Origin: Chitinophagaceae bacterium
Lineage (GTDB): Bacteria; Bacteroidota; Bacteroidia; Chitinophagales; Chitinophagaceae
NCBI GenBank assembly: GCA_024707305.1
Contig: JANPZZ010000026.1
Coordinates: 124,001-188,000 of the forward strand
Direction: 5' to 3'
Length of the DNA stretch: 64,000 nt
Each line of letters starts with the position of its first letter. Positions within the stretch are counted from its first letter, which is position 1. This document shows positions 9,001-63,591 of this stretch, in pieces. The notes under the pieces were generated by a model. The model was not told where the DNA came from, made no database searches, and saw only the letters and a program-made list of their open reading frames with translations. The translations under genes and the position numbers were made by a program.

Positions 9001-9008
9001 TATCTTTG
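9001..9008 (+). promoter_or_regulatory. Predicted -7 box (TATCTTTG) for the acyltransferase
   Basis: Identical to the box before ispG and only 4 bp from the ATG at 9013, so the transcript is probably leaderless. Repeat words occupy the -33 region. Confidence 0.55.
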
Positions 9009-9012
9009 CCCC

Positions 9013-9895
9013 ATGTATTACATCGTTTTTGGATTATTGTACCTGTTATCCTTATTGCCGTTACGCGTTTTGTATCTTTTTTCCGACCTGGCTTATTGGT
9101 TTATTTACCGGGTGAAGGGTTATCGGAAAAAATGTGGTGATGTCGAACCTGAAACATGCGTTTCCTGAAAAAACAGAGGAAGAGCGTGAAAAAATTGCGC
9201 GGGAGTTTTATCATCTTTTTACAGATACATTCATTGAAACTATCAAACTGATTTCAATGAGTAAAAAACAGGTTGCAAAACGCGGTCTGGCGGATGTAAC
9301 TTATCTAAATGAACTCATCGATAAAGGACATAATATTCATATCCTCGCAGGACATCAGTTTAACTGGGAATTTGCCAATCTATCTTATGCTGCAAACCTG
9401 AAGATTCCCTTTGTGGGAGTATATGCGCCAATCGGCAGCAAAATTTTTGATCGCATATTTTATCGTACAAGAAGCAGAAACGGAACCGTGTTGATATCCA
9501 ATCGTGAGTTCACTTCTAAAATGCATACTGTTTTTACACAACAATATATCCTTGCCTTAGCGGCCGACCAGAATCCCAATAAACTTGCACGTTCTTACTG
9601 GGTGAATTTTATGGGAAGGCCTGCTCCATTTGTAATGGGCCCCGGCAAAGGTGCTGTAAAGAACAACACTGCTGCTGTGTATGTGGGATTCCACCGCGTT
9701 CGTCGGGGGTATTATGAATTTAAAACCTTTCCAATAACGGAAAACGGTGCGGCGCATACGCCGGAGGAATTGACCGTTTTATATAAAAGGGCACTTGAAA
9801 AAGTAATCCGTGAAAATCCATCTAACTATTTATGGTCACACCGCAGATGGCGGCACGAATGGAAACCTGAATACGGCCCGGTGCTCGATCAATAA
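9013..9895 (+). CDS. Lipid A biosynthesis acyltransferase (LpxL/HtrB family), one frameshift
   Basis: Inner-membrane late acyltransferase that adds a secondary acyl chain to lipid A or a related lipid. About 294 residues. An N-terminal membrane segment (MYYIVFGLLYLLSLLPLRVL) is followed by the family core with the catalytic H-x4-E motif (GHQFNWEFA), then ALAADQNPN and a C-terminal SHRRWRHEW. The frame breaks in the A6 run at 9127-9132; A5 restores YRKNVVMSNLKHAFPEK. ATG 9013 follows a TATCTTTG promoter. Exact acyl substrate cannot be told. Confidence 0.85.
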
Positions 9896-11065: not shown

Positions 11066-11731
11066 TTATTTAGCAGGAGAGTAAAACTCTTTTAAGTAGT
11101 AAGGCTCACTGTATGCGAGATCCGACCACTCCTGCTTTTCGCATTTTTTCATCGCAGGTTGTACCATTGCAGCTGCATCCATTTCTATTTTGCTTATTAG
11201 CAGATTTGGATGATGATGAATTGCTGCAGCTTTTTCTGCGCCATCACCAGAAAGAACTAAACTTCCTTTTTCAAGCCATTCATTTAAACATCCCTCTTGC
11301 AGGATAATTGCACCCGGAGGTGAAACTTCAGAGAGATTGTTGTCGTAAACAGCAGCAAACACTTCCATTCGTCTTGCGTCAATCATCGGGCAATAGAAAT
11401 CTCCTTTCAAATCTTTCTGCGCAGCGATTGCCATTATCTCCAGGGTAGGAATGCATATCAATGGTTTTGAAAGTGCAAAACACAAACCCTTTGCTGTTGC
11501 CATTCCCAGGCGTAGGCCGGTGTATGAACCCGGCCCCATACTCACTGCTATGGCTGTCAACTCGTTGAGACTCTTCTCCTGTTCTTTCATCATCTGTGCA
11601 ATTGCATCATGTAACCATGCTGCATGTCGTTGCCTGTCTTCATTTTTCTTCACCGCCACTACCTGACCATCAATGGTGAGGCAAATACTGGCGGTTTTGC
11701 CAGATGTCTCTATATTAAGAATGTTTGCCAT
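11066..11731 (-). CDS. tsaB: tRNA N6-threonylcarbamoyladenosine biosynthesis protein TsaB
   Basis: Non-catalytic Kae1-like partner of TsaD and TsaE in t6A37 tRNA modification. 221 residues with the diagnostic MGPGSYTGLRLGMATAKGL and N-terminal ILNIETSGKTASICL. The start MANILNIETS at 11731 is preferred; a 38-codon extension upstream would run into the preceding gene. It begins 2 bp after the stop of the 3HCDH-like gene, so the two form an operon. Confidence 0.92.
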   Translation of the reverse strand: MANILNIETSGKTASICLTIDGQVVAVKKNEDRQRHAAWLHDAIAQMMKEQEKSLNELTAIAVSMGPGSYTGLRLGMATAKGLCFALSKPLICIPTLEIMAIAAQKDLKGDFYCPMIDARRMEVFAAVYDNNLSEVSPPGAIILQEGCLNEWLEKGSLVLSGDGAEKAAAIHHHPNLLISKIEMDAAAMVQPAMKKCEKQEWSDLAYSEPYYLKEFYSPAK

Positions 11732-11733
11732 TT

Positions 11734-12369
11734 TTATGCCAAAGCCGCGTTTTTGAGCAATGAAGATGGAGTATATCTTTTTTGCCGGGTTGATAACTTC
11801 TCTAAAAGCCTGTATATCTGTTTCAATCCAATCTTTTTCCCCCATTCAATGGGTCCGTAGGGGTAATTTGTCCCCAGTTTCATTGCGATATCAATTTCCG
11901 CTGCTGTACTCACTTCATCTTCCATTGCGAAATACGCTTCATTAATGATGGATGCGACAACACGCGCAGAAATCATACCGCAACTATCTGTTACCCACTC
12001 AGTTTCGCGTCCAAAATGGGCTATAACAGATTCAACCTGCCCGCGATCCACCGTTTCTGAAGCAGCCATCTCCACTCTTTCACCTAAAAACCCCGGCCAG
12101 GCGTTAATTCTCACCAGATTTTCACCCAATTCGGCTGTAGTGGCAATCACGGCGTTAACTATACAAACGGACACCGGTAATTGTTGTAACCAGTTTATCA
12201 CGTCCTGGTCATATTCCTGAAAGAGATACAATACCGCATCAGGCTGCCCCGGCAGTTGCTGTATTCCCTCATTTTCGGAATAAAACACCTCAGTATGTTG
12301 ATCTGTGGAGGCCGGCAGTTTTTTCCATTCTTCCAGAATTTCGGATGGCGCTATGACTACTACTTTCAT
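11734..12369 (-). CDS. 3-hydroxyacyl-CoA dehydrogenase C-terminal-domain protein with a divergent N terminus
   Basis: 211 residues. The C-terminal half is a 3HCDH domain (IINEAYFAMEDEVSTAAEID, then YPYGPIEWGKKIGLKQI). The N-terminal half has some Rossmann-like strands (MKVVVIAPSEILEEW; SVCIVNAVIATTAELGENLV) but no GxGxxG dinucleotide motif, so classical dehydrogenase activity is doubtful. Start 12369 is chosen because longer forms run through the divergent promoter region shared with ridA. It forms an operon with tsaB. The gene pair is familiar in Bacteroidota, but the role is not known to me. Confidence 0.75.
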   Translation of the reverse strand: MKVVVIAPSEILEEWKKLPASTDQHTEVFYSENEGIQQLPGQPDAVLYLFQEYDQDVINWLQQLPVSVCIVNAVIATTAELGENLVRINAWPGFLGERVEMAASETVDRGQVESVIAHFGRETEWVTDSCGMISARVVASIINEAYFAMEDEVSTAAEIDIAMKLGTNYPYGPIEWGKKIGLKQIYRLLEKLSTRQKRYTPSSLLKNAALA

Positions 12370-12416
12370 GATCGCGTTTTTGCAAAGAAAAAAGCATAAA
12401 CCTATATTCGTTTCTC

Positions 12417-12424
12417 TAAATTTG
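12417..12424 (+). promoter_or_regulatory. Predicted -7 box (TAAATTTG) for ridA
   Basis: Exact TAnnTTTG, 6 bp before ATG 12431. A weaker TTTCTTTG on the opposite strand (12383-12390) may serve the divergent operon. Confidence 0.55.
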
Positions 12425-12430
12425 AAATAC

Positions 12431-12817
12431 ATGAAGAAAGTGGTAATAAATACCAATATGGCTCCCGCGCCGATAGGGCCGTACAACCAGGCGATATTAA
12501 CCGGCAACCTGCTTTTTATATCCGGTCAGATTTGTATTGATCCCGCAACGGGAAATTTGGACAATAAGGACATTCAGGCAGAAACACATCGCTGCATGCA
12601 AAACCTGCGTGCAATATTGAATGCTGCAGGAATGAATTTTAGTCATGTGGTAAAAACAACCATTTTCATTACAGACATGAAACAATTCTCGGAAATAAAT
12701 GAAATCTATGGGCAGTATTTCACTGGCGACTTTCCAGCCCGCGAAACGGTTCAGGTTTCTGCACTTCCAAAATTTGTAAATGTTGAAATCAGTATGGTCG
12801 CAGAAAAAGAATCGTAA
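12431..12817 (+). CDS. ridA: RidA family enamine/imine deaminase
   Basis: 128 residues, full length. Hydrolyses reactive 2-aminoacrylate and related enamines released by PLP enzymes. Family marks are APAPIGPYNQA near the N terminus and the conserved Arg near residue 104 in FPARETVQVSALP, followed by VEISMVA. ATG 12431 is preferred over an upstream in-frame ATG at 12305 that lies inside the divergent gene. A strong bidirectional terminator follows. Confidence 0.92.
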   Translation: MKKVVINTNMAPAPIGPYNQAILTGNLLFISGQICIDPATGNLDNKDIQAETHRCMQNLRAILNAAGMNFSHVVKTTIFITDMKQFSEINEIYGQYFTGDFPARETVQVSALPKFVNVEISMVAEKES

Positions 12818-12874: not shown

Positions 12875-12893
12875 TTGTAGAGTGGTGCGATGA

Positions 12894-15878
12894 TTAATGC
12901 GCTACCACCATTTTGATTACTTCTTTTTCACCACCAATGTTTACAGAGATCAGGTAAATACCATTGGCAAGTGAACCTGCATCAATAGTTTGAATGTACT
13001 GGCCGGCAGGCAGGTTCTGACCAGGCTGGTACTGACGAACCAATTTACCGGTGTTGTCGTAAATAGCAATGCTCAAATCGTAGCTGCTTGCAGAGATCAC
13101 TTCCAGGCGTGTATTACCACCGGTAGGATTCGGGAACAACCGGATGTAACGACCATTGGTCAGTGCTTGTGTAGTAAATGGTTGACCCGCTGTAGCTACG
13201 TACGTAGTGGTAGTGCCACACAACGCAATTACATTGTATTCATAGTTAGCTGATGGCTGGAGTCCTGTCAATTCAACCGAATTGCCATCTACATGAACTT
13301 CGCTCCAGGTAGTGGTTCCTTCAATACGGTATTGAACATTTGCCGAGCTCGATCCCTCAGGATATGTCCAGCCCAGTAATACACGTGAGGGGCTGTATGG
13401 TTGTGCTGTAAAGTTGCTTACAGGTCCGCAGCCGATAACATTAATCGTTGCGGTAGCGGTATTACGACATCCATTTGCAGCAATACCTTCAATGGTATAT
13501 TGCGTTGTTTCAAGGGGGCGATAGGTGCCGGATGTTTGTGTAGAGCTTACCATATCGGGCAGCGACGACCAGTTGTAGTTTACAGCACCAGTTGCTGTTA
13601 ACGTTTGAGAAGAGTATTTCTCAATGGTGCTTACAGCAGGTGTTACTACCACATTAGGACGGGGCAGAACGGTTACGTTTTGCAGTTCAGAAGATACGCT
13701 GCAAGAACCCAAGGTAGTAGTTACACTGTATTCACCGGATGCGTTCGCAACGTATGTACTTGTGGTTGCACCTGAAATTTCATCGCCATCCACAAACCAC
13801 TGGTAGCTATATCCGGCACCTGTTGAAGTGTTGAAAGTAACGGTGCCGCCTTCGCAGAAGCTGAGGTTGCCTGTACGTGTAATCGTAGCTGTCGGGCTTG
13901 GGTTTACCGTTACAGCCACAGCTGATGAAGTGGTTTGACAGGTAGCACCCGCAGATACGCTAACGGTATAGTTTCCTGATTGAGATGCATTATAGCTGTC
14001 GCTGGTAGCGCCGGTAATTGCAGTTCCGTTGCGGAACCACTGATAGGAATAACCGGCGGTTGAGTTAGCATTAAGTGTTACAACAGTGCCTTCGCAAATG
14101 GTGGTGCTGCCCACTGGTGTAATCAATGCTGTAGGAGAGGTAACTTCTAGTACCTGCACGTTCAATGTACCGCTGCAGGCGCCAGAGGTTGCGCTAACAG
14201 AATAGTTGCCTGCCGCAGTTACGTTGTAGGAAGAACTGGTTGCTCCCGCAATCGGACTACCTCCCAGATACCATTGATAAGTATAGGCGGGGTTATCGGT
14301 AGCGCTGATGGTGATATTTCCACCTGGGCAAATAGCTGCAATGCTGCCGGTATTCAATGCAAAGGATAATGTGGTGCCCGTGTTGCCAACAACAACATCA
14401 TCTGTTACTTTACAACCAGTACCATCTGTTACAGTAACGTGGTAAGTGCCGGGAGCCGCGTTCGTCAATGTGGCGCCAGTATGACCGGTACTCCAGAGAT
14501 AGGTAAGGTTACCGGTGCTATTGGCTGCATTTACGGTAACGATACCATTGCTTTGGTTACAGGAGGCGTCCACTTTAGCAAAGCTGACCGTCATGCGGCA
14601 TGTGCCCAGACAGGCAGCTCCACCGACAACAGACCTGATACGATCACCAGGCTGAGGCCCAAATCCATTCGCGAAATTGATACCATAACCCGTAAGGTGA
14701 CAATAACTCATGATTGTACCACCATTACCGGGAGCTGGCCCGGGAGTACATCCTGCGCCATTTACAGGTTCGGTGGGTACACAGTTGTCGAGCGCTCCAC
14801 CATTCCAGCCGCACCACTGTGTGTGATTACTTCCCAAATTGTGGCCCATCTCATGCGTTACCACCTCCACGGTCCATGAATACGTGGGTAGGTTTTGATA
14901 AGTATTCTGGATACCGCTTACAGCTGATTTAAACTGGCGCGGTGACCCACAAGGATTGGGAATTATATAAGCGATACCACCACCGATATTTCGCGTAGAC
15001 AAAAGGTGCGCATAATCACCATTGTAGGTTGTATTAACCAGCCTGTCACGGAATGAATACAACATCGGCTCTGTATTTGTAAATGATGCTTCAGGATCCG
15101 TTGATGTCCACACGCGGATATGCGATACCTGCACCAGGATGTCTTCATTTGCATACAACTGCGCTACGTTGTTAAAGAAGCCTAACACGTAGTTGATGGT
15201 ATTGACAGTGTTGCTGCCTTTATCCTGGTACATTCTGTAATCGCACTCAAAATAAATTTCAACCGGTTGGCCCACCGCTTCGCCGCGAGCCATTGTGTTG
15301 TTTTGAACATGATGATTGATTTCACCAATGGTATGGCCATCATCATTCGTAAAACAACCCAACGGGTTTTTTACTCTCATATCGCGTTCACGATAAAAAG
15401 TGTATTCAGCGGTTGCGAAACCATCTTTTTCAATAGCACCGAGAACCATATTGCCATTTTCATCAGCAATAAGACCCATTACCTGGCCATCAACAAAACT
15501 AAAAGAAGCCATACTTCCTGGTTTCCCTTTCACTTTTCCACGATAAAAACTTCCTTCAGGAATGGCAACATCACGAATGTCTCCCTGTATCGAAGTCTCA
15601 GTAACTTTAAAATTATCACTGGTGATTTTTACTTTTTCCATTTCCAGTTCGATCAATGTACCCTGGTAAGGCAACTGAAGTTTTAACTGCTGGGGCGAAC
15701 TGCTGCGAATACTTTGAAGTCGTTCACTTTTTAATTCAAGTGCTTCATAAACTGAAACAACTGAATGCTGGTCGCGGGAAAGAGTAGTGCGGGTTTCGAA
15801 AAGATCGGAAATAACCTGTGCACGAAGGTTGGCTGCTCCAACAAGAAGCAGTGACAAAACAATAAAAGCTTTTCTCAT
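12894..15878 (-). CDS. Secreted reprolysin-like zinc metalloprotease with Ig-like repeats, FN3 and T9SS sorting domain
   Basis: 994 residues, intact. Signal peptide MRKAFIVLSLLLVGAANLRA, a propeptide-like region to about residue 190, then a metzincin domain with zinc motif HEMGHNLGSNH (around residue 342) and Met-turn TIMSYC. Four or more Ig/PKD-like modules follow (repeated YSYQWF or YTYQWY and GNYTVSV), then a fibronectin type III domain (about residues 820-905) and a C-terminal type A T9SS domain (LFPNPTGGNTRLEV to the end). It should be exported by Sec, cross the outer membrane by T9SS and be anchored or released outside. The host substrate is unknown. Convergent with ridA. Confidence 0.92.
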   Translation of the reverse strand: MRKAFIVLSLLLVGAANLRAQVISDLFETRTTLSRDQHSVVSVYEALELKSERLQSIRSSSPQQLKLQLPYQGTLIELEMEKVKITSDNFKVTETSIQGDIRDVAIPEGSFYRGKVKGKPGSMASFSFVDGQVMGLIADENGNMVLGAIEKDGFATAEYTFYRERDMRVKNPLGCFTNDDGHTIGEINHHVQNNTMARGEAVGQPVEIYFECDYRMYQDKGSNTVNTINYVLGFFNNVAQLYANEDILVQVSHIRVWTSTDPEASFTNTEPMLYSFRDRLVNTTYNGDYAHLLSTRNIGGGIAYIIPNPCGSPRQFKSAVSGIQNTYQNLPTYSWTVEVVTHEMGHNLGSNHTQWCGWNGGALDNCVPTEPVNGAGCTPGPAPGNGGTIMSYCHLTGYGINFANGFGPQPGDRIRSVVGGAACLGTCRMTVSFAKVDASCNQSNGIVTVNAANSTGNLTYLWSTGHTGATLTNAAPGTYHVTVTDGTGCKVTDDVVVGNTGTTLSFALNTGSIAAICPGGNITISATDNPAYTYQWYLGGSPIAGATSSSYNVTAAGNYSVSATSGACSGTLNVQVLEVTSPTALITPVGSTTICEGTVVTLNANSTAGYSYQWFRNGTAITGATSDSYNASQSGNYTVSVSAGATCQTTSSAVAVTVNPSPTATITRTGNLSFCEGGTVTFNTSTGAGYSYQWFVDGDEISGATTSTYVANASGEYSVTTTLGSCSVSSELQNVTVLPRPNVVVTPAVSTIEKYSSQTLTATGAVNYNWSSLPDMVSSTQTSGTYRPLETTQYTIEGIAANGCRNTATATINVIGCGPVSNFTAQPYSPSRVLLGWTYPEGSSSANVQYRIEGTTTWSEVHVDGNSVELTGLQPSANYEYNVIALCGTTTTYVATAGQPFTTQALTNGRYIRLFPNPTGGNTRLEVISASSYDLSIAIYDNTGKLVRQYQPGQNLPAGQYIQTIDAGSLANGIYLISVNIGGEKEVIKMVVAH

Positions 15879-45688: not shown

Positions 45689-46480
45689 ATGAAAATCGAA
45701 AGAAAAAATCCTATGGGGCGACTGTTGCTCCTGCTGCTGCCACTTTATGTGTTGTCATCATGCAGTACGCAACAACGTATTCCCAATTACCTACAGAATG
45801 TATCGGATACAACCAGACTGGGGCGTGTAGACTTCCCACAACTTCGTATCCAGAAGAATGATCAGTTATCCATACAGGTATTTAGTGCCAGTACAAAAAG
45901 GGAAATTTCTGATGCACCTTTTAACCTGCCCGCAACAGCAAGTACAGATGCTGCAACACAAGGTTACCTGGTAGATGCTGAAGGTAACATCGAATATCCG
46001 ATGCTGGGTTTTATAAAAGCTGAGGGATTAACGCGCCAGGAACTTGCGGACGTCATTAAACGTAAAATCAACGAAAATGATTCAGTACTCTACAATCCTT
46101 CAGTTGTGGTACGATTTCTGAATTTAAGAGTGACCGTTCTGGGTGAAGTAGGGAAACAGGGTATCATCCAGTTTCCCGGTGAACGTGTCAACATTATGGA
46201 AGCAATTGGACTTGCAGGCGGAATTACAGAATTCGGCCTGAAGAATAATATAAAAGTGATCAGGGAAGCAAACGGCGAAAGAGAAGTGGGGATTCTCGAC
46301 CTCTCTTCGGATACCGTTTTCCATTCGCGCTTTTATAATCTCATGCAAAACGATCTCGTACTGGTAGACCCAGCGCCTCGCAAAGCGAAGAAAACTGAAC
46401 AGGAAGCATTCTTCCGTCAGGCCGGTTTCGTAATCAGTATCATCACCGCCACAGCCGTTGTAATCCGTCTTTTCCAATAA
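45689..46480 (+). CDS. Wza-like polysaccharide export lipoprotein
   Basis: 263 residues. Lipobox LSSC (Cys at residue 25), PES domain (residues 50-130; LRIQKNDQLSIQVFSAST, GYLVDAEGNIEYPMLGF), one SLBB domain (VTVLGEVGKQGIIQFPGERV) and a C-terminal hydrophobic segment (FVISIITATAVVIRLF) replacing the outer-membrane helix of E. coli Wza. It should form the outer-membrane export channel with the Wzc-like kinase 24 bp downstream. Confidence 0.9.
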   Translation: MKIERKNPMGRLLLLLLPLYVLSSCSTQQRIPNYLQNVSDTTRLGRVDFPQLRIQKNDQLSIQVFSASTKREISDAPFNLPATASTDAATQGYLVDAEGNIEYPMLGFIKAEGLTRQELADVIKRKINENDSVLYNPSVVVRFLNLRVTVLGEVGKQGIIQFPGERVNIMEAIGLAGGITEFGLKNNIKVIREANGEREVGILDLSSDTVFHSRFYNLMQNDLVLVDPAPRKAKKTEQEAFFRQAGFVISIITATAVVIRLFQ

Positions 46481-46504
46481 ATGAATTTTCATAAATAGTC
46501 CGGA

Positions 46505-48910
46505 ATGGAAGAATCAATCAATAGTACAGGAACCAGGGCGGATGCCGGTGGTTTAAGCCTGAAAGATCTGTTCTATAAATACATCCGTTTTCTCCCTTAT
46601 TTTATACTCTCTGTAGCCATCGCACTGCTGGCCGCTTTTATGTATTTGCGTTATGCCGACCGTTCATATAGTTCCGTTGGGAGTATGCAGATCAAAAGTG
46701 CACAGGGAAATCAACGTTCCGACAAAGTAGAGGACCTGCTTTCCGGAGGCAACAGATCTCAAAATATCCAAAGTGAAATAGAAGTTATTTCTTCCCGTCC
46801 ACTAATGAAACGGGTCGTTCAACGGCTCAACCTTCAATTTTCCATCACAGCAGTTGGGCGTGTACGCGACCAGAACGTGTATGGACAGGCACCTTTTGAA
46901 ATTCTGGTGTACGAGTTGAAAGACTCTACCAAAAGTTTCACATTGAATGTCAAATTTATTGACGATAATAAATTCCGACTCAATAACAGTGAGCAGTCTT
47001 TTGCATTTGGCGATCTGTTGACAAATCGTTTTGGAGTTTTTGTAATTAAACAGCTCTCTGAGCCCGCAGTTGGTCAGGAATACCGCGTACAATGGAGACC
47101 ATTGGAATCAGTTGCACGTAGTTATGCCAGCGCCATCAAAGTGCAACCTAAAGGAAGTGGCACCGGCATATTGACTGTTAGCATGGAAGCAAACAATCCA
47201 CGTCTTGCTGCCGACATCATCAACTCATTGATGGTACAATATGATTCCCTTACGGTGGAACAAAAGAACCATTCCATTGACCAGCGAATCGCTTTCATCG
47301 ATGGCCGATTACACCAGCTAAAAGGTGAAACAGACAGCCTCCAGGAAATAAGTCTCGGTTTTCGTGACAAAAACAACGTAATTGATGCTCAGACACAGAC
47401 AGGTAATTCTTTCGCGATCATCAATGAAGCAGATCGTCGCATCATGCAGGAGGAAATCAAAATGGGGCTGGTGGATTATATCACGGATTATCTCAAACAA
47501 AAGGCAAATCAGTTTACCCAGGTTGTTGTACCCTCCGCATTAGGACTGGAAGATATTGTGTTGAATGATTTAATCTCTGGTTATAACCGTGCACAACTCG
47601 AACGTAAGTCCTTACTCGAATCGAATATTCCTCCCGGTAACCCGGCGGTGCGAGAGATTGAATCTCTGATTGAACAGCAGCGCCAGAGTGTACTCGAGAA
47701 CCTGAAAAACATAAAGGTTACTTACCTGGATGCAATTGGGCAGATCCGTCGCAATACTGATAATGAGCGTACACATTTGAAGGCATTACCAGGAAAAATG
47801 AAAGAGTTGTTAGATGTTGACCGTCAGATCAACACCAAACTTGCACTTTATTCATTGTTAGAAGGTAAGCGCGAAGAAGCTGCGATTGAACGTGCAGCAA
47901 CAACATCTAATTCTACGATCATCGATCAGGCTGGCGAAAACAGAACGCCCGTGAAACCGAACAAAAACATGATCCAGCTAATTGCGATTGTGTTGGGCAT
48001 CGGTATTCCAGCTGCGATACTATTTATCGCAGAGCTGATGAATGACAAAATTCAAACACGCAACGATATCGAACGAATGACTGAAGCACCCATCATCGGT
48101 GAAATCGGGCACTCGTATTCAGATAGCACACTCGTCGTCAATCGCACCAGCAGGAGCATGGTGGCTGAACAATTCAGGACCATCCGATCCAACCTCGACT
48201 ATGTACTCACACGATCTACAAAATTTGTCTGCCTGATTACTTCTTCCTTCAGTGGAGAAGGTAAATCATTTGTAAGTACAAATATGGGAGCTGTATTGGC
48301 TGTAGCTGGTAAGAAATCGGTAATTCTTGAGTTTGATATCCGCAAACCCAAAGTAATGTCGGGGTTGAAAATGGGTAAACATAAAGGTATCTCGAATTAT
48401 CTCGCAGGAAATGCAGAACTGGAAAGCCTGATCATCCCCGTACCCGATTGTGAAAACCTTTATGTACTTCCTTGCGGACCTATTCCTCCCAACCCATCTG
48501 AGCTTTTGTTGGATCCAAGAGTGACGGAGATGTTCGAAAAATTGAAAAGGGACTTTGATGTGGTGATCATCGATACGGCACCCGTTGGCATGGTGAGCGA
48601 TGCGATCACATTAGGCAAATTCGCGGATTGCACACTTTATCTCACACGCCAGGGGCATACATACAAAAAACAAATTGGCCTGGTTGATGAAATGTATCGC
48701 GAGAAAAAATTGCCAAAGGTTTCTATCGTTATCAACGATGTGAAACTGAAACCAGGATACGGTTACTATGGTTATGGTCGTTATGGATATGGATATGGTT
48801 ACGGCGCCCGAGGTTCATACTACGAAGAAGAAGTAACACCGAAGAAAAAGTCTGCTGGGCCGATTCTTTTCAGCCATCAACATATTCAAACGCAAATAAA
48901 TTATCAATAA
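46505..48910 (+). CDS. Wzc-like polysaccharide co-polymerase/tyrosine autokinase
   Basis: 801 residues, intact. Two membrane segments (near 32-50 and 492-515) bracket a Wzz periplasmic domain with coiled coil and GNVR-like region (about 60-480). The cytoplasmic BY-kinase has Walker A SSFSGEGKSFVSTN (near 584), Walker A' ILEFDIRKPK and Walker B VVIIDTAPVGMVSD. The C terminus has a Tyr/Gly tail (GYGYYGYGRYGYGYGYG) with around 13 Tyr, the probable autophosphorylation cluster. It controls polymer length and export with the upstream Wza. No cognate phosphatase (Wzb) is seen. Confidence 0.92.
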   Translation: MEESINSTGTRADAGGLSLKDLFYKYIRFLPYFILSVAIALLAAFMYLRYADRSYSSVGSMQIKSAQGNQRSDKVEDLLSGGNRSQNIQSEIEVISSRPLMKRVVQRLNLQFSITAVGRVRDQNVYGQAPFEILVYELKDSTKSFTLNVKFIDDNKFRLNNSEQSFAFGDLLTNRFGVFVIKQLSEPAVGQEYRVQWRPLESVARSYASAIKVQPKGSGTGILTVSMEANNPRLAADIINSLMVQYDSLTVEQKNHSIDQRIAFIDGRLHQLKGETDSLQEISLGFRDKNNVIDAQTQTGNSFAIINEADRRIMQEEIKMGLVDYITDYLKQKANQFTQVVVPSALGLEDIVLNDLISGYNRAQLERKSLLESNIPPGNPAVREIESLIEQQRQSVLENLKNIKVTYLDAIGQIRRNTDNERTHLKALPGKMKELLDVDRQINTKLALYSLLEGKREEAAIERAATTSNSTIIDQAGENRTPVKPNKNMIQLIAIVLGIGIPAAILFIAELMNDKIQTRNDIERMTEAPIIGEIGHSYSDSTLVVNRTSRSMVAEQFRTIRSNLDYVLTRSTKFVCLITSSFSGEGKSFVSTNMGAVLAVAGKKSVILEFDIRKPKVMSGLKMGKHKGISNYLAGNAELESLIIPVPDCENLYVLPCGPIPPNPSELLLDPRVTEMFEKLKRDFDVVIIDTAPVGMVSDAITLGKFADCTLYLTRQGHTYKKQIGLVDEMYREKKLPKVSIVINDVKLKPGYGYYGYGRYGYGYGYGARGSYYEEEVTPKKKSAGPILFSHQHIQTQINYQ

Positions 48911-53998: not shown

Positions 53999-55183
53999 AT
54001 GGCAATAGCGTTTATACCGGCGAGAGGTGGAAGTAAATCGATTCCCGGAAAAAATATCAAAAATTTCTGCGGTCGGCCGCTTTTGTATTGGTCTATACTG
54101 GCGCTCGAGAAAAGTGAAGAGGTAACGCGCATTGTTGTGGCAACCGATTCGCCTGAGATTCGACACACTGTCTTAGGTTTTGGATTCGAAAAGCTGGAAG
54201 TTTACAACCGAGAAGAGGAAAATGCACAGGATCATTCATCAACCGAAGCGGTGATGCTGGAGTTTCTTGCAGGCCATACGCTTCCCGACGACGAATTATT
54301 TATTCTGGCTCAGGCAACAAATCCATTTTTCACAACCGCAGATATTGATCAGGCTATCAAACAACTGCAACAGCAACGAGCCGATTCGCTGCTTACTTGT
54401 GTTCGTAACAAAAGGTTTTACTGGAAGGAAGATGGAACGTCGATTAATTACGATTATCGGCAACGGCCAAGGAGACAGGATTTTGATGGTATACTGATGG
54501 AAAACGGCGCATTTTATATTAATAAAATTGCCAGCATCAGGAGAGACCACAATCGTCTTAGCGGAAAAATTGCAGTCTATGAAATGCCGGAATTTACCGC
54601 GTTCGAAATAGATGAGCCTTCTGACTGGATTATCATGGAAAAACTTTTCCAGGTAAATGGCCTGGCAGGCGAATCCGGTTTCGGCAATATTAAATTGTTT
54701 GTATCAGATGTTGATGGTGTGCTGACGGATGCGGGAATGTATTACTCCGAATCGGGTGATGAGATGAAAAAATTCAATACACACGATGGAATGGGTTTCC
54801 AGTTACTGCGAAACGCCGGCATAAAGACGGGGATCGTGACCACTGAAAACACACAAATAGTTGAACGAAGAGCAAAGAAATTAAAAATTGATTATTTATT
54901 CCAGGGCAAAGGATTTGGAGGCAAACTGGAAGTGATTAAAGAAATGTGTTCATTGGAAAATATTCAATTGAATAATGTCGCTTATATTGGTGATGACCTC
55001 AATTGCCTGGAAGCATTAAACGCAGTAGGTGTAAAAGCATGTCCTGCCAACGCAGTTGATCGCGTAAAAGACATTCCGGGAATTGTGCACTTAACAAGGA
55101 GAGGCGGAGAAGGTGCCGTAAGGGAGTTTGTCGACCTGCTTTTGAATCATATACAGCATACTTCTAAAAGTCAAGACAAGTAA
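53999..55183 (+). CDS. neuA: CMP-nonulosonate synthetase fused to a KdsC-like HAD phosphatase
   Basis: 394 residues, intact. Residues 1-225 are an N-acylneuraminate cytidylyltransferase (IPARGGSKSIPGKNIKNFCG; LAQATNPFF; EIDEPSDW). Residues 233-394 are a HAD phosphatase of the KdsC type (LFVSDVDGVLTDAGMYYSE; THDGMGFQLLRNAGIKTGIV; YIGDDLNCLEA). The order matches animal CMAS. Since no NeuC epimerase is present, the HAD part may dephosphorylate a 9-phosphate made by NeuB before CMP transfer. Stop and next start overlap (ATG 55183). Confidence 0.9.
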   Translation: MAIAFIPARGGSKSIPGKNIKNFCGRPLLYWSILALEKSEEVTRIVVATDSPEIRHTVLGFGFEKLEVYNREEENAQDHSSTEAVMLEFLAGHTLPDDELFILAQATNPFFTTADIDQAIKQLQQQRADSLLTCVRNKRFYWKEDGTSINYDYRQRPRRQDFDGILMENGAFYINKIASIRRDHNRLSGKIAVYEMPEFTAFEIDEPSDWIIMEKLFQVNGLAGESGFGNIKLFVSDVDGVLTDAGMYYSESGDEMKKFNTHDGMGFQLLRNAGIKTGIVTTENTQIVERRAKKLKIDYLFQGKGFGGKLEVIKEMCSLENIQLNNVAYIGDDLNCLEALNAVGVKACPANAVDRVKDIPGIVHLTRRGGEGAVREFVDLLLNHIQHTSKSQDK

Positions 55184-56318
55184 TGAAGATTCTTCATGTA
55201 GCTTCTTTTTCGGGAAATATTGGAGACAATGCAAGTCATGCCGGATTCAAAACTATCCTCGATAAATTCATTGGCAAATACGAGATCACAGAACTTGAAA
55301 TCCGAAAATTTTATAAAAATTACCGCCTCAATGATAAACTTCGTTTCGATGAAGATTTTTTGAATCTTTTAAAAAATTATGACCTGCTCATTATAGGCGG
55401 TGGTGGTTTTTTTGACTATTGGGTTCCCGGAAGTGAAACCGGTACCACAATTGACATTGCACCTGAAATTCTTTCCCGGATATCAACGCCTTTGGTTATC
55501 AGTAGTGTGGGGTGCATGCCACATAAACAGGTACCAGAGGGAAACGTGGAGAAATTTCGAAACTTTCTGGATATTTTGCTCCAAAAGAAAAACACATTTG
55601 TAGCAGTACGAAATGATGGCTCCATCAAAACTTTGCGCAATTTTATCGGGGAGCGGTATGCGGATGCAATTCCGGAAATTGTAGACCATGGATTTTTCTA
55701 TCAAAATGACGGATCTTATTTCCGGCCTTTTGAAGGGAAATATGTCGCCATCAACTCCACTTCGGATCAACTCAATATGCAGAACGCAAAAGTTGGACCG
55801 ATAAATCACGAATTATATCATGATGAACTTCGCAAAGTTATCAATCATATAATTTCTCAAACCGATCTTAATCTCGCTTTTTGTTCCACATATTTATTCA
55901 GACGTAGAAGCGATATATAAAATTCTGAGCGGAATCGATGATTTTATTATCCGTACACGGATCGCTATCTCCCCGTATTCGTCGGGTATGCTTGCTTGTA
56001 ATCAGGCTTTTTCAACATACCACAATAGTGAATTTAATATCGGCATGCGTTTTCATGCCAATGTATGTTCAATAGCCATGCAAAAGCCAACCATCGGTCT
56101 TGCTGCCCTTGATCGCGTGCTAAACGTATTTGAGAATATGGGAATTGCAAAGGCCGCGATCCAGGTGGATGGAAAGTTCTCAGATAATGTCGTGAACAGC
56201 ATAAGCGACATTCAACAGGAAAAACGGAACTGGCGGGCTGTATGTAAATGCATCTGTGCTAAATGAGCGAAAGAATGACACCATTCGCTATTATGAATCA
56301 GTTTTTGATAAACTTTAA
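55183..56318 (+). CDS. Polysaccharide pyruvyltransferase family protein, two frameshifts
   Basis: About 378 residues. Starts MKILHVASFSGNIGDNASHA and has LLIIGGGGFFDYW, VAVRNDGS and, in the C-terminal half, NIGMRFHANVCSIAMQKPTI, the standard PS_pyruv_trans pattern. Transfers pyruvate from PEP to a glycan, adding negative charge. Frames break near 55880 (VPHIYSDVEAIYKILSG restored) and near 56222 (GTGGLYVNASVLNERKNDT restored, ending SVFDKL at 56318). Its start overlaps the end of the NeuA-HAD gene. Confidence 0.85.
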
Positions 56319-56345: not shown

Positions 56346-57554
56346 ATGAGCAATAGCAAGAAGAAGCCGAGGGTTCTTTTAAATTGGGACACTACAAGAA
56401 AGGATTTGTGGGAGCCTTTTCTGGCCATGAAGGATGAAGTTGACTTCGTGGTAATATGGGGCGCAATTGATGAAAATCCATGGCACCCCTTCCCCCAGGT
56501 TTCTTTTGCGGATTATAAGTCTCCTTATAAATTGTTGGACGATGTTCAACCCGACCGGATCCTGTTTTTTAATATCAATGCTTTTACGCATATTGGATTA
56601 AATCTGGCGGCGAAGAACCGCGGCATTCCGACCTATATCATGCACCATGCAATCTTTCATTCCGACCTGATTGAACGCAACAGGGAGAAAGAAAAAGAGG
56701 GTGTAGAAAGCAAAGCCGAAGGAAGTGTTAACCCCAACACGGTTCAATTTTATTTATCAGCCCTGCGTCCAAAGAACATACTCCAGGTACGGAAGTACTT
56801 ATGGTTTATGTGGCTCAGGAGAAGACGTGAGCGTACACTGGCTCTTGAAAAGTGTGTCTTTGACGGACGATTACCTACCCGGTATATTAATCTTTCGCCC
56901 CATAATGCAATTCTCAATATTAAGGTGGATCATATTAAGAAGCTTGATAAGTTTATTTTTATTGGACATCCTTTTTTTGATTCGATTCTGCAAAGTCTGA
57001 ATAATCAGGTTGGCAAAGTCGCTTTAAAGGAAGATCCTTATTATCTATTGATTGATTTCCCGAATGATGAAAACGTTGTCATCTTCAGAAAAATGGGGGC
57101 AGAGAGGAAAAGGAAGTTTTACCAGAACCTTTCAACACTTGCCCGAAAAAAAGGCCGCCGACTAAAAATTAAACTACACCCAAGAGGATATTTTAGTGAA
57201 CACAACTATCAGGATGATAATATTGATCTCATAAGGGAAGCTGATATGGCGGCATTGATTCATCATGCTGACAAAGTATTGAGTTTTTTTTCAACGCTGA
57301 TTGTTCCTGCTATTTACCATAAAGGATATTGCCATATTATTTACACCGGGGATGACCGGAAGTTTCAGGATGAACTGGTTGAATTAGGAGTAGCAACTAA
57401 GCTTGATGCATATGATTTTGATGAGAGCGATCTTGAAAAAGGACTGGAAGTAAACAAAGAAAGTGAAAACTTCCGCATATTTATTGAAAGATATCTTTAT
57501 TATACTGACGGAAAAGCAAGTCAACGTTTAAAAGAATTGCTGGCGGGCCAATAA
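56346..57554 (+). CDS. Putative GT-B glycosyltransferase, candidate sialyl/nonulosonyl transferase
   Basis: 402 residues, intact. N-terminal half with LLNWDTTRKDLWEPFLAM, YIMHHAIFHSDLIER; C-terminal half with KIKLHPRGYFSEHNYQDD and ADKVLSFFSTLIVPAIYHKG. The KLHPR motif followed about 45 residues later by a Ser/Thr pair (SFFST) resembles bacterial sialyltransferase and capsule transferase families that use CMP donors. With NeuB and NeuA-HAD a few genes upstream this is a plausible nonulosonyltransferase. I could not assign a GT family by eye. Confidence 0.6.
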   Translation: MSNSKKKPRVLLNWDTTRKDLWEPFLAMKDEVDFVVIWGAIDENPWHPFPQVSFADYKSPYKLLDDVQPDRILFFNINAFTHIGLNLAAKNRGIPTYIMHHAIFHSDLIERNREKEKEGVESKAEGSVNPNTVQFYLSALRPKNILQVRKYLWFMWLRRRRERTLALEKCVFDGRLPTRYINLSPHNAILNIKVDHIKKLDKFIFIGHPFFDSILQSLNNQVGKVALKEDPYYLLIDFPNDENVVIFRKMGAERKRKFYQNLSTLARKKGRRLKIKLHPRGYFSEHNYQDDNIDLIREADMAALIHHADKVLSFFSTLIVPAIYHKGYCHIIYTGDDRKFQDELVELGVATKLDAYDFDESDLEKGLEVNKESENFRIFIERYLYYTDGKASQRLKELLAGQ

Positions 57555-57555
57555 C

Positions 57556-58812
57556 ATGATCCGATATATCCGAAACTTGTCACTTTACACGCTGGTGGGT
57601 GTCGTGAATGCGGGAATTGGTTTTTTCCTGCTCCCGGTTCTCACTGCTTATCTTACGCCTGAGGATTATGCTGTTATTTCTCTGGTCAATGTGTATGTTT
57701 CGGTGCTGATACCCATAGTCGGTCTGTCTACCGCGGGATATATTACAGTTGAATACTACAATCCAAAACTTCCGAAAGAACAATTCCCTTCTGTATTTAG
57801 CTCGGTTCGGGTGATTCCGCTATTTGGTATTTTGATACTGAGTTTGGTTTTTTTCGCAGGGCAACATTTCCTGCCACCCCTCATGGAACTGCCGGTTAAA
57901 GCGTACTGGCTCATTTTGCCCCTCACACTTTTCAGCCTGTATGTGGCCAACTTCAGCAGCTTTCTCGTTGCCACCAAACGTGCTGCATTGTTTACCTCAA
58001 CGTCCTTCACCAAACTTGCAGTTGAAATTGGCATCACTCTTTCACTGGTAATCGGCATAGGGATGCAATGGGACGGACGAATTTATTCTGCGTTTATTAC
58101 AGCTTTTGTCTTTACGTTACTCTCTGTTTATTTTTATAGAAAGTGGAATTTGCTCAACTGGGATATCAGAAAAGATATCATTCAAAAGGCGATTTTTTTT
58201 GGGACCCCGCTTATCATGCACCAGATAGGCAAGTTTGTAATCAACCAGTCCGACCGACTATTCCTGGCGAAAATGGTTTCAATGGATGAAATGGGTATCT
58301 ATAGCGTAGGATACCAGGTTGGAACACTGATAATGATTTTGGTAACAGCATTTTCTAACTTCTTCTCGCCCTATTTATATGAAAGACTTGCCAGGAATCA
58401 GGATAAAGATCGTCGTGAAATAGTGAAGATGAGCTATATGTTTATTGGAGGCATCCTTGTCGCATTGCTCATTTTGGTACTGCTAACACCCTTTCTATTC
58501 TCCATATTTATCAATGAACGATATGCAGGTGGTGCGAATTATGTTTTGTGGGTGGGGTTGGGTTATGTGTTTTGGGGGGTATACAGCATCTTTGGAGGTT
58601 ATGTTTTTTATTACAAAAAGACATATCTCCTGGGAAGGCTTGCCATCGTTAACGTTGCACTCAACTTCGCTTTCAATTATATTTTTATCAAAGAATATGG
58701 CGCGATAGGAGCAGCCTATGCAACCTGTCTTTCGTATTTTCTTGTGGCCTTAATGATGGTGTTCATTGTTGCACGTAAATATCCAATGCCCTGGATGTTG
58801 AAAAGGAGATAA
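57556..58812 (+). CDS. wzx: Wzx-type polysaccharide flippase
   Basis: 418 residues, intact, about 12 predicted membrane helices (first YTLVGVVNAGIGFFLLPVLT). MATE/MOP superfamily with the conserved start YLTPEDYAVISLVNVYVSVL and SDRLFLAKMVSMDEMGIYSV. Flips lipid-linked repeat units to the periplasm, implying a Wzx/Wzy pathway. No Wzy polymerase is recognised inside the window. It starts 1 bp after the upstream stop. Confidence 0.88.
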   Translation: MIRYIRNLSLYTLVGVVNAGIGFFLLPVLTAYLTPEDYAVISLVNVYVSVLIPIVGLSTAGYITVEYYNPKLPKEQFPSVFSSVRVIPLFGILILSLVFFAGQHFLPPLMELPVKAYWLILPLTLFSLYVANFSSFLVATKRAALFTSTSFTKLAVEIGITLSLVIGIGMQWDGRIYSAFITAFVFTLLSVYFYRKWNLLNWDIRKDIIQKAIFFGTPLIMHQIGKFVINQSDRLFLAKMVSMDEMGIYSVGYQVGTLIMILVTAFSNFFSPYLYERLARNQDKDRREIVKMSYMFIGGILVALLILVLLTPFLFSIFINERYAGGANYVLWVGLGYVFWGVYSIFGGYVFYYKKTYLLGRLAIVNVALNFAFNYIFIKEYGAIGAAYATCLSYFLVALMMVFIVARKYPMPWMLKRR

Positions 58813-58820: not shown

Positions 58821-59889
58821 ATGCGTTTACTTCATATCATCGATAGTCTGAACACAGGTGGTGCGGAACGATTATTAGTGGATGTCATCAACGGTCTAAA
58901 TGGTGTTGAACATCATGTATTGACTATCTCCGACCAGCAGGAACTTTCGGGTTGCCTACCACCAGATGTTCAAATATCGGGAATTGGATTTCGATCAAAG
59001 AAAGATATTCCTCAAGCGATCAGAAAAATCCGTACGTACATCCGGCAACATAAAATAGCGCTTGTTCATTCTCACCTCGCAATGGCAAACGTACTGGCCC
59101 GTTTTGGCACACCTGCGGAGATACCACTTATCAATTCTCTTCACAGCCAGAATGGTATGCGCTTGTTTTTCTTCCAAATGGTCGCTCGCGACCATCATGG
59201 AAAAATGGTCATATCGTTCACGACATCATCTACTTGCGGTGTCAGAAGTTGTCCTGGATGACTACCGTCGTTATATTGGAGTGAAAGGGCCGGCAACTGT
59301 TTTGCACAACTTTGTGGCTGACCGTTTTTTTTCGCAGGCGCCCCGTCATTGGGCGCCGGGCAAGCCTCTAAAGCTGATATCTGTAGGAACTTTGAAACCG
59401 GCAAAAAATTATGCATTCCTGATTCGCGCATGCAAAAAACTTCCCCAGTATTGTACACTGGATATTTATGGGGATGGACCTCTTAAAGAGGAATTGCAGG
59501 ATTTAATTGAAAAAGAAAAGGCGCCGGTACGTTTGTGTGGTGGCCGTTCGGATATTGACACGCTCTTGCCATTGTATGACGTGTTTGTAATGAGTTCGTC
59601 AGTCGAAGGGCACCCAGTTGCACTAGTGGAGGCAATGGCTTCCGGATTGCCTGCAATTATGAGCGATATTCCTGTATTACATGAAGCGACCGGAGGAAAA
59701 GGTATCTATTTTTCACTTGAGAAGCCCGAAGCATTCACGAATGCTATCAGAGATATTCTGGATGGAAAAACAGATTTGAATGAGTTTGCTGTTCATAATC
59801 ATCAATATGCTCAACAAACGGCCCGAAAAGAAGGTTATCTAAATCGGTTGATGGAGCTTTATGAATCTACATTAAATAATCGCAAGTAG
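58821..59889 (+). CDS. GT4 family glycosyltransferase, one frameshift
   Basis: About 356 residues. N-terminal LLHIIDSLNTGGAERLLVDV; acceptor half ends LINSLHSQN. The C-terminal donor half has ISVGTLKPAKNYAFLIRAC, DIYGDGPLKEEL and the E-x7-E motif in SSVEGHPVALVEAMASGLPA. The frame breaks near 59203 (A5 to A4 gives DHHGKWSYRSRHHLLAVSE). Adds a sugar to the growing repeat unit. 8 bp after wzx. Confidence 0.87.
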
Positions 59890-59952
59890 TTTATCCTTTC
59901 ATTATTAAATGGTTTTTCGACAATGTGGTCTGATTTTGGAAGAAAATCGAAT

Positions 59953-62344
59953 ATGGAAAAAAGAGCATTCCTTTACGTTATATTAATAACAATCGTACTG
60001 CCATGGTGGGGCTGCAAAGGAAGCGGTACCGTACAGGCGAGACAATCACAAAGATTTATTTATGTGCCTGTAAAGACTGAAAAAGAAGTACTGGAATCTG
60101 TGCGGGATATGGCTTACTGGCTTGAAAAAGCAGACGGCAGTAAATATGAAATAAGAGAAGCTGATGTTCCGCCCGACAACGGGATCCGACTGGTGGATTT
60201 TAATAAAGTAAATCTGTCGACTGCACAGCGGGTTGATATGGAAACCAACGGGCAGAGTTTTCACCTGCTGGTTAATGGACCGGGTCAGGTCCGCATCGCC
60301 GGGTCGGGGAAGAACTCATTTATTAATGGAATTTACACTTACCTCCATGAACTCGGTTTTCGGTGGTATGCACCGGGCGAATTATGGACTAAAACAGGCA
60401 ACCCGGGAGCCAATATTACTATCAATAAACTCTACAAACCCGATTTTCAGGATCGATTTTACTTTGGTTCCGGGGGACATGCTGCAATTCCTGCCATCGA
60501 CCCCGACGGAACATTTTCGAAAGACTTTTCGCTTTGGAATCGACGTAATCTTTGGAACGCAGATTATACCAACAAAGGGCATTCCGGAAACAAATTCTAT
60601 AATGACAACAAAAAGGTGCTCGACCAACATCCTGAATATTTTTGTGATGGGAAAGTGAATCGCCAGGGTTGGATTGATGTAAACAACAAAGCAGTTGTAG
60701 ATATCTTCGTTCGATGGGCAAAAGGCCAGGTTACCGCAGGAGAACGATTTCCGTCAATAGGAGTAGACCCCGCAGACGGAAGCGGTGCGAAAGGTGATTG
60801 TCTGCCTGTGAATCACCCTACGATTAAGACATGGTCTGATAAATACTATTGGCTGGCTAATCAGGTGGCTGCTTCACTCCCCAAAAATGATCAGGCAACA
60901 CGTATACAGCTTTATGCATATAACAATCACGCAGCGCCTCCAGGCTTCGCCTTGCAATCGCAGGTATTCCCAACTATTATTCCTTATGCTTTTCAAAATG
61001 TAACCTCGCCAGAGAATTTCATATCACTTTGGGAAAAAAGATGAACGGGCGGCCGATGGGGTTATATGATTATTGGAATATTACACAATGGAGTAAAGGC
61101 TTACCGCAATTTGATATTTACCTGCTTCCAAAGAAGTTGAAAAGATGGAAAACAGCAAATGTTACTTCCATACAAATCGAAGGAACGTATGGAAAAGGTC
61201 CGATTGGACATGTAATGTGGATTGCATCTCGATTGCTGTGGGATGCTGACCAGGATTTTTGAAAAGCTTTATCAAACCTACTTAACGGATTGTTTTGGTG
61301 CCGCAGCAAGCGACATCAGGCGAATGTATGATCGATGGAGCAAAAATTTTGTGGAGGCTATTGAACCTTCCCTCGCTTTGTATGATCTTGACAGAGCTTC
61401 TGCCAAAGTAAGTGATCCTGCCATACAGGGGCGTATCAACGAACTAAAAGCTTATGTGCAGTATCTGAAATTGTATGAAGCACATCTCGAACAAAATACC
61501 GCCGCTTCTTACGAAACGCTGGTAAATTTTACGCTCAGCATTCATCATTTACGACTTGTGCATACTCACGCACTGGTTAATCTTTATCTCCCACTTCCCA
61601 AAGGCTATCAACGCGAAAAAGACAAGAACAAACTGCAAAAAAAATATTCGACCATTAAACCTTTACAGCCATCGGAGATAAATAGTGAATTCGCGCGCAG
61701 TTTACGTACAGCAATACCAGAAGTAAAATCATCGATTTTCACACCAGAATTGACAGCGCTGGTTCACATTGGAAATCCTAAACCAGTTGTTGCTCAGTTT
61801 ATCAATAGTCAGAATCGCTATGATTTCTTTTGCCCAGAGCAAAAAACGTTCGTAGTAAAGGCCGGTTCAACAAAGGCTACTAATATCTATGTTTTAAACG
61901 AGAGAAATGATACCGTTTTTTAAAAAGGCAGTGCTTGAAGACAAGGACAAATTTGAAAGTGTCTCTATCTCCTTACCACCGGGAAAATATAATCTGCTTG
62001 TAGGAGGGAAAAATTTGATGACGCACGTGGAATTTCCAGCAGATATCATTTTTACTTCGGTTGATAATTGGTACGATAATTATCAATATCCTGCCCTCTA
62101 TTTTTTCGTTCCCTCAGACGTTGAACAGGTTGTTTATTGGGATGAGCATGGTCCGGGCCAGAATAGAAAAGGTTACTGGATTAATCCAGATGGCAAGCGG
62201 ATCGAACCTATACAACTTACAAATAAGGTGTATAAAATTAATGTGGAAGAAAAGTATAAAAGGCAAAGCCTGGCAATTTATTGTTGGGCACAGATCCTAC
62301 AAGATGATCAATATACCTCACAGATATTCGCTTTCACCTTTTGA
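59953..62344 (+). CDS. DUF4838 lipoprotein (putative glycoside hydrolase-like), three frameshifts
   Basis: About 797 codons from MEKRAFLYVILITIVLP, with a lipobox-like WWGC (Cys near residue 20). The N-terminal alpha/beta domain (FHLLVNGPGQVRIAGSGKNS; YTYLHELGFRWYAPGELW) and the DUF4838 barrel (SIGVDPADGSGAKGDC; TRIQLYAYNNH) are visible; a C-terminal beta domain ends AQILQDDQYTSQIFAFTF. Frames break near 61036 (SLWEKKMNGRPMGLYDY), 61258 (DADQDFEKLYQTYL) and 61918 (NDTVFKKAVLEDKDKF). An exported hydrolase-like protein inside the polysaccharide locus could trim or modify the product. Activity unproven. Confidence 0.75.
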
Positions 62345-62366: not shown

Positions 62367-63591
62367 ATGAGAAATCAACAGGTACTGTATGTATCATACG
62401 ATGGAATGACGGACCCGCTCGGGCAAAGTCAGGTATTACCCTATATATGCGGCCTTGCCGATTTAGGATACAGATTTACACTTCTAACATCCGAAAAGCC
62501 GGAACGAATGAAGGCGGTAGGAGGTCTGATCAGGGAGATTTGCAAGAAACACAATATCGACTGGGTGCCACTCATTTTCCATACACAGCCGAAATTAATT
62601 TCAAAAGTTTATGATGTGCGGTGCCTTAAAAGAAAAGCTGTTGCACTTTATAAATCGAAGAAGTTTGAGATGGTACATTGTCGTAGCTATGTTGGCGTGG
62701 ATGTCGGGCTGCATCTCAAAAGAAAATACGGCGTCAGGGTTCTATTTGATATGCGGGGATTTTGGGTTGACGAAAGGGTTGATGGCAATATGTGGAATCT
62801 TAAAAACCCGATTTATAAATACGCATTCAGGTACTATAAAAACAAAGAGAATAATTACGTTGCAAATGCGGACCATATCGTTTCCCTGACAGAAGCAGGT
62901 AAACGCGAAGTGCAAAAATGGAAAGGGTATAGAAATGCCGAAATTAGCGTGATACCGTGTAGTGCAGATTTTAATGTGTTTACATTATTAACAAAAGAAG
63001 AAAAACAAAAAGCAAGAATAGCGCTTGGCCTTCCAGAAGAAGGTTTGGTTTTGAGCTATCTGGGATCCATCGGAAGTTGGTACCTGCTACCGGAAATGTT
63101 GTCGCTTTTTGCACTCACCAAAGAGAAATATCCTGAAGTTAAATTTTTGTTTGTCACATCGGGTAATCCTGATTTAATTCTGGCTGAAGCAGAAAAAATT
63201 GCAGATAAAAAAAGAAGATATCGTAATACGTTTTGCTTCACGTAAGGAAGTGAACTTCTTTACAAAAGCTGGCGATATTAATCTGTGTTTTATTAAACAG
63301 GCCTATTCAAAAATCGCAAGTTCGCCTACCAAACTTGGTGAAATCTTTGCCATGGGGATACCTGTAGTTTGTAATGATGGTGTTGGTGATGTACGAGAGA
63401 TTGTTGAATCAGTTGATGCCGGAGCAATATTGTCCAATTTTAATACGGAAGAATTTAAAAGGGTAATCGCTGGTTTTGATACGTTATTGAAAAAAGATCC
63501 GGCCACAATCCGCAGCAGAGCCCTGGGTTATTATAGCCTGGACAAAGCCCTGGGGACCTATGCATCCATTTATAAGAAATTAATTGGGTAA
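62367..63591 (+). CDS. GT4-type glycosyltransferase, one frameshift
   Basis: About 408 residues. The start VLYVSYDGMTDPLGQSQVLP is characteristic of a polysaccharide-locus GT4 subgroup. MRGFWVDERVDGNMW marks the acceptor side; the donor half has LSYLGSIGSWYLLPEML and a degenerate E-x7-E region (SSPTKLGEIFAMGIPVVCNDG). The frame breaks near 63208 (KIADKKEDIVIRFASRKEV restored). Confidence 0.85.

Follow-up and report, generated by a model that had tools for sequence, protein, structure and literature searches.

The window, by which is meant the whole stretch of DNA that was analysed (64,000 nucleotides from a Chitinophagaceae bacterium), contains genes for a polysaccharide export protein and a Wzc-like protein and, in the same locus, a compact series of genes encoding a NeuB-family nonulosonate synthase, a fused CMP-nonulosonate synthetase and HAD phosphatase (NeuA-HAD), a pyruvyltransferase, a predicted GT-B glycosyltransferase and a Wzx-type flippase (Table 1). 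The glycosyltransferase gene, which is the subject of this analysis, is a single unbroken frame of 402 codons running from ATG to TAA. A first-pass annotation of this DNA had placed it near NeuB, NeuA-HAD and a pyruvyltransferase, and the Pfam matches agree, with the qualification that the pyruvyltransferase frame is broken: the break lies between 55920 and 55988, and the C-terminal piece forms a frame of its own at 55988-56266. The same-genus genome G002 has a collinear locus encoding a protein 53-54% identical to the glycosyltransferase (53% over 399 aa). This relative, and the invariance of K276, H278 and P279 in all 16 aligned family members, exclude a chance frame. Among the frames of at least 100 aa examined from 40 kb to the end of the window, the glycosyltransferase (P0001) is the sole plausible carrier of a [KR]xHP motif, the other match being an epimerase with the motif at residue 47.

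Table 1. Coordinates of the genes and sequence features discussed in the text
Feature	Position	Strand	Basis
GT-B protein, 402 aa, candidate CMP-nonulosonate (probably CMP-KDN) transferase	56346..57554	+	intact frame, 16-member family, fold, NeuB linkage
NeuB-family nonulosonate synthase, 293 aa	53099..53980	+	PF03102 E 2.8e-63
Fused CMP-nonulosonate synthetase + HAD phosphatase (NeuA-HAD), KDN-type	53999..55183	+	PF02348 + HAD families
Polysaccharide pyruvyltransferase, broken frame	55183..56266	+	PF04230 on both pieces, scanned separately
Wzx-type flippase	57556..58812	+	PF01943 E 5.4e-13
Polysaccharide export protein + Wzc-like protein, same locus	45689..48910	+	PF02563, PF13807, PF13614
K276-L277-H278-P279-R280, KxHP cytidine-nucleotide motif	57171..57185	+	K, H, P in 16/16 members
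S316-T317, candidate phosphate-binding Ser/Thr pair	57291..57296	+	S 15/16, then S/T 16/16
Asp300 codon, candidate ribose ligand	57243..57245	+	D 12/16, N 4/16
Codon for His101 of the H-G/A motif, putative catalytic base	56646..56648	+	H 16/16

Four of the neighbouring genes look frame-broken, namely the pyruvyltransferase, a GT4 glycosyltransferase (58821-59889), a gene at 59923-62344 that occupies three frames in the window as against one 783-aa frame in the related locus L008, and a second GT4 (62367-63591). The glycosyltransferase and the flippase are both intact in their midst. The broken frames reflect either sequencing errors in a draft genome or decay.

Distribution of the glycosyltransferase family

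Searched as a single protein, and with its own genome counted, the glycosyltransferase found matches in only 4 of 59 relatives and 3 of 395 genomes of the phylum. A profile built from seven members (E <=1e-5) found the family in 18 of 294 genomes of the same taxonomic family, at 20 places, of which one only is in the source genome. A search with a subset of members gave nine loci, eight from Bacteroidota and one (L051) from a Polyangiaceae metagenome-assembled genome, whose protein is 42% identical to the query subset; the last suggests horizontal transfer or a binning error. The family alignment used below comprises 16 members including the window protein. In one locus, L010, a pair of family members is separated by about 3 kb (8449-9687 and 12890-14119). 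A single-protein search of genome contigs returned 11 pattern matches, none of them a relative; the plasmid and phage records searched gave no match to the window protein, nor did the viral contigs searched with alignment A1 yield a relative.

In four of the related loci a conserved companion of 315-331 aa is encoded just upstream of the glycosyltransferase (L009:8353-9345, L034:7773-8750, L036:8461-9405 and L037:8290-9276), and three of the four contain K-x-HP. For the L009 companion, neither Pfam (at 0.01) nor NCBIfam (at 1e-5) gave a match. In these loci the companion competes with the family glycosyltransferase as the candidate transferase; it has no counterpart in the window.

Predicted fold and database matches

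Two AlphaFold models (mean pLDDT 81.3 and 88.1, with pTM 0.87 for the latter) match solved GT-B proteins across almost the whole length, so that the fold is predicted to be GT-B, as the first-pass annotation had it. The models do not discriminate between TagF, TarL and UDP-sugar 2-epimerases: the best VIA-align match was TagF (3l7k_D, Z 18.7, rmsd 4.7, 323 residues aligned), followed by a UDP-sugar 2-epimerase (Z 18.6), TarL (Z 17.8) and the CMP-bound capsule enzyme 8a0c (Z 17.8). The GT38 polysialyltransferase 5wc6/5wcn was absent from the 50 VIA-align matches listed, which is no proof of difference; Foldseek, proposed earlier as a check, placed 5wcn at rank 42 (E 7.4e-7) in a mixed list.

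UDP-GlcNAc 2-epimerases and UDP- or TDP-sugar transferases make up many of the best fold matches, and PF02350 is matched by 3 of the 16 family members, as might be expected if the protein, as part of the same locus, were a GT-B transferase with a UDP-sugar donor or an enzyme with the fold of the UDP-GlcNAc 2-epimerases. We regard this as very improbable, in view of the invariance of the KxHP motif in all 16 members, of single-member PF02350 scores (20.2 and 24.0 bits) that lie under the cut-off of 30.6, and of the linkage of the family to NeuB described below.

The resemblance to GT38 that the first-pass annotation had seen is real but transitive. The window protein itself scores 15.3 bits against PF07388, under the cut-off of 23.3, while 10 of the 15 members scanned singly (L034 being left out) exceed it, and 11 of the 16 match at E <=0.01 (best 2.2e-12). 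For the window protein no other sialyltransferase Pfam family (GT52, GT80) was listed at E up to 1, and an NCBIfam scan gave no match. PF04464, the family of TagF and TarL, is matched by 4 of the 16 members (best 2e-7) and exceeds its cut-off in two of the 15 scanned singly, L009 and L042; at E up to 1 it gave no row for the window protein, nor any in the source genome. Against the PDB, the seven-member profile had TarL as its sole match under 0.01 (E 3.9e-6), confined to the C-terminal part (profile positions 179-403), while the 16-member profile gave eight matches, to CapG (E 2.1e-4) and 2-epimerases, with neither TarL nor a sialyltransferase among them. Searches of the PDB by phmmer with the window protein and with the L035 member produced nothing credible. 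An unmistakable match to transferases that use CDP-glycerol or UDP-sugars had been named at the outset as evidence against a sialyltransferase, and such evidence has in part appeared, in the TarL match of the smaller profile, the PF04464 matches and the TagF and 2-epimerase folds; TarL did not recur with the larger profile.

Conserved residues

Ten positions are invariant or nearly so in the alignment: P69, H101, G102, G207, K276, H278, P279, S316, D388 and G389, position 102 being glycine in 15 of the 16 members and alanine in the window protein. The KLHPR sequence and the downstream Ser/Thr pair picked out by the first-pass annotation are thus both present and conserved. The HP motif (K/R-x-H-P) is described as a feature of sialyltransferases (PMC2169525, PMC12887879), and (K/R)XHP is reported to contact cytosine both in these enzymes and in retaining Kdo transferases (PMC12887879). 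For the Mannheimia GT38 enzyme, contacts to phosphate and ribose are described for H291, S339, T340 and E323, and E153 of a D/E-D/E-G motif is given as the base (PMC5517516). K276, H278, P279, S316/T317 and D300 fit the nucleotide-contact layout of this enzyme, and D300 lies 16 residues before S316, the same spacing as that of E323 from S339. The CDP-ribitol enzyme TarL aligns with the same KxHP, S-S/T and DG..ER features, so the layout points to a cytidine (CMP or CDP) donor and does not single out sialic acid. The earlier proposal of a sialyltransferase, with CMP-KDN among the donors named, accordingly holds as a proposal of a CMP-nonulosonate transferase, and not as one that the motif can specify.

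The likeness to GT38 and GT52 fails at the base motif. D/E-D/E-G is kept in none of the 16 members at the aligned site, which reads E/H/Q/S/D-H-G/A; the two sites are taken as equivalent from position rather than from superposition. H101 falls 95-96 residues into the aligned ranges, close to H444 of TagF and H300 of TarL (93 and 92), which are the residues replaced in solved variants. Because x-H-G stands in place of D/E-D/E-G, at an offset near that of the TagF and TarL histidines, H101 is the candidate catalytic base.

These shared features raise the alternative that the protein transfers polyol phosphate from CDP-glycerol or CDP-ribitol, as TagF and TarL do, with NeuB merely present in the same polysaccharide locus. 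The TarL profile match with its common KxHP, S-S/T and DG..ER, the four PF04464 members, the tied first place of TagF by VIA-align and the position of the invariant histidine all favour it, yet we consider it improbable. PF07388 both outnumbers and outscores PF04464 in the family (11 against 4 of 16; 2.2e-12 against 2e-7). Glycerol-3-phosphate cytidylyltransferase (TIGR01518) was not found in the one source genome, 90% complete, with a model that matched in 12 of 14 control genomes, an absence that bears on CDP-glycerol supply only. The family is also tied to NeuB, as shown in the next section.

Linkage to nonulosonate biosynthesis

NeuB occurs in 90 of the 294 same-family genomes: in all 18 that have the glycosyltransferase and in 72 of the 276 that lack it (Fisher p 1.5e-10, own genome counted and kinship uncorrected). 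Five or six of the 18 rest on partial, weak matches; for the 13 genomes with strong matches the figure is 13 of 13 (p 1.1e-7). The association is also one of position. Of 20 glycosyltransferase places, 18 lie within 13 kb of NeuB, a limit set after the distances were seen, and 17 within 10 kb, while only 5 of 141 listed PF01943 flippases away from the family lie within 13 kb. This control comprised 150 listed rows, less nine beside the family. The rows come from 80 of the 90 genomes with NeuB; the ten contributing none have mostly weak NeuB matches and no family glycosyltransferase. The places without NeuB on their own contig are G621:C50 and a weak match, G486:C730.

By blast, NeuB was found in 13 of 15 fetched neighbourhoods; in the other two it lies 8.5 kb from the nearer of two glycosyltransferases, outside the stretch (G029), or on another contig (G621). 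Blast finds NeuA-type proteins in 10 of the 15, to which Pfam adds L008; homologues of the window flippase occur in 10, adjoining the glycosyltransferase in nine. L012 repeats the window cassette, with a short NeuB (70%) and a NeuA-HAD fusion (57%) followed by a divergent family member. In L009, PseC, PseG, PseI and PseF exceed their NCBIfam cut-offs, with PseH under, giving a pseudaminate set; in L041, LegC-family, NeuB_NnaB and NeuC_NnaA models do so, giving a legionaminate/neuraminate set; and in L042, PseI. More than one kind of nonulosonate thus accompanies the family.

A PF04464-like group of glycosyltransferases is also linked to NeuB, at 14 of 34 places (41 rows less seven at or beside places of the present family). 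In Bacillus, SpsB, a TagB-domain protein adjoining legionaminate genes, is described as unneeded for legionaminate transfer (PMC7439481), a case which shows that linkage to NeuB, strong as it is here, is no proof of function.

Which nonulosonate

Since the motifs indicate only a cytidine nucleotide, the argument for a particular donor rests on gene context. The closest PDB chain to the HAD half of NeuA-HAD is 3e81 (E 7.3e-40), deposited as an acylneuraminate cytidylyltransferase, which we take to be the KDN-9-phosphate phosphatase of B. thetaiotaomicron. Residues E56, R64 and K67 of 3e81 are all kept in the fusion; relative to 3e81, 4hgq has a different residue at position 56, and 4hgr at positions 56 and 67. 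The NeuA half is closest to 9t4z, PpNeuA (E 7.2e-38), by its name the CMP-Kdn synthetase of Prymnesium parvum. The best NCBIfam match of the fusion is KDN-9-PPhBT, at 171.3 bits just under the cut-off of 180; the general YrbI model is over its cut-off. Synthesis of KDN is known from Bacteroides thetaiotaomicron, and in this species and in P. parvum the pathway is reported to start from mannose-6-phosphate (PMC6200933).

The donor might instead be of another type (pseudaminate, legionaminate or neuraminate), which we think rather unlikely. The window NeuB is under every NCBIfam cut-off, other relatives lie in the pseudaminate and legionaminate/neuraminate sets described above, and the two closest, L008 and L038, adjoin NeuB proteins of another type; that of L008 has a SAF domain, and a Pfam scan listed no PF08666 match for the window NeuB. 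Set against this are the resemblance of the window synthetase-phosphatase to KDN enzymes and the scans of window frames, which showed no aminotransferase, NeuC or PseG.

Four further loci (L084, L085, L086 and L089) combine a NeuB of the window's KDN type (70-73%) and a separate KDN-type HAD protein (67-68%) with a different, R-x-HP glycosyltransferase of 467-493 aa, an alternative candidate group of nonulosonate transferases. The idea that a clade of the present family tracks the KDN type was rejected on account of these four genomes and of the other-type NeuB in L008 and L038.

Proposed role

The window protein is probably a CMP-nonulosonate transferase and, granted that, there is a good chance that its donor is CMP-KDN. 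In the explanation that we favour, and hold to be likely as a whole, it would be a GT-B glycosyltransferase acting in the cytoplasm as part of a Wzx-type surface-polysaccharide locus. Its donor would be the CMP-sugar, most likely CMP-KDN, of the nonulosonic acid that the products of the two synthesis genes immediately upstream make. The nonulosonic acid would be added to a lipid-linked repeat unit, which would then be exported by the neighbouring flippase. We infer the acceptor, the stereochemistry and the part played by each residue, as we do the donor. The C-terminal domain would bind CMP, with K276 and P279 at the cytosine and D300 at the ribose; H278 and S316/T317 would engage the phosphate and the leaving group; and H101 of the N-terminal domain would deprotonate the acceptor hydroxyl, allowing direct, inverting displacement.

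The functional class is a known one and the branch little described; this is most likely a poorly described group rather than an entirely new kind of enzyme, and a new GT family, as the first-pass annotation had suggested, is possible. A bolder and on balance doubtful reading would make the protein a dedicated KDN transferase, in a NeuB-linked family in which the histidine of x-H-G replaces the Glu/Asp base of GT38, GT52 and GT80, which bridges sialyltransferases and TagF-type polyol-phosphate transferases and has branches for KDN, pseudaminate and legionaminate/neuraminate. Among the open-licence papers listed in literature searches, none was on a dedicated bacterial KDN transferase. Many bacterial genomes hold genes for nonulosonate synthesis with no assigned transferase; a sequence-recognisable family tied to three pathway types would make their assignment possible and would provide tools with which KDN, pseudaminate or legionaminate could be attached, and a link between sialyltransferase-like and TagF-like active sites bears on the origin of both groups.

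Comparison with known systems

A functional precedent is provided by GtfS (Tanf_01245) and TFUB4_00887 of Tannerella forsythia, which are reported to transfer pseudaminate and legionaminate derivatives, the sugar being lost in knock-outs (PMC6388019, PMC6120980). Like the window protein they come from Bacteroidota, are described as GT-B proteins with an HP motif, and are encoded in a glycosylation cluster next to its CMP-nonulosonate genes (PMC6120980, PMC6388019); elsewhere they are described as TagB-domain proteins (PMC7439481). They differ in length (442-445 aa against 402) and, by their published description, in having DXD and D/E-D/E-G, the latter not present at the aligned place in the window protein.

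The GT38 polysialyltransferases (Mannheimia 5wc6/5wcn) share with the family the GT-B fold, KxHP, the S-S/T pair and the acidic residue 16 positions earlier, together with the PF07388 and Foldseek matches; they differ in the catalytic glutamate of D/E-D/E-G, which is histidine in all 16 members, and in the score of the window protein, which does not reach the PF07388 cut-off. TagF and TarL share the best or tied best fold and a histidine at a similar offset, and TarL the three C-terminal features; they are set apart by the linkage of the present family to NeuB and by the glycerol-3-phosphate cytidylyltransferase search, in which none was found.

The 'RCHP' group (alignment A4, 465-493 aa), from other genomes of the same taxonomic family, also adjoins NeuB, and in four genomes it stands beside the KDN-type NeuB and HAD of the window's kind. 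By profile comparison it is distantly related to the window family over the C-terminal part (hhalign probability 93.7, E 1.9e-7); its members have R-x-HP rather than K-x-HP and are about 65 aa longer. The NCBIfam model NF046086, whose tag BFO_1060 is perhaps a Tannerella name, matches 2 of the 16 members (best E 5.1e-6; model cut-off 200 bits) and is over its cut-off in 12 of the 395 phylum genomes. It was rejected as the same family: in the 12 loci, which are short and have short flanks, NeuB lies within about 1.5 kb in one only (L064), and K-x-HP is near residue 230 rather than 276. Adjoining the same-genus glycosyltransferase in L008 is a gene (11372-12787) for a 472-aa protein that has a GT2 domain (PF00535) and, after it, a weak cytidylyltransferase domain (PF02348).
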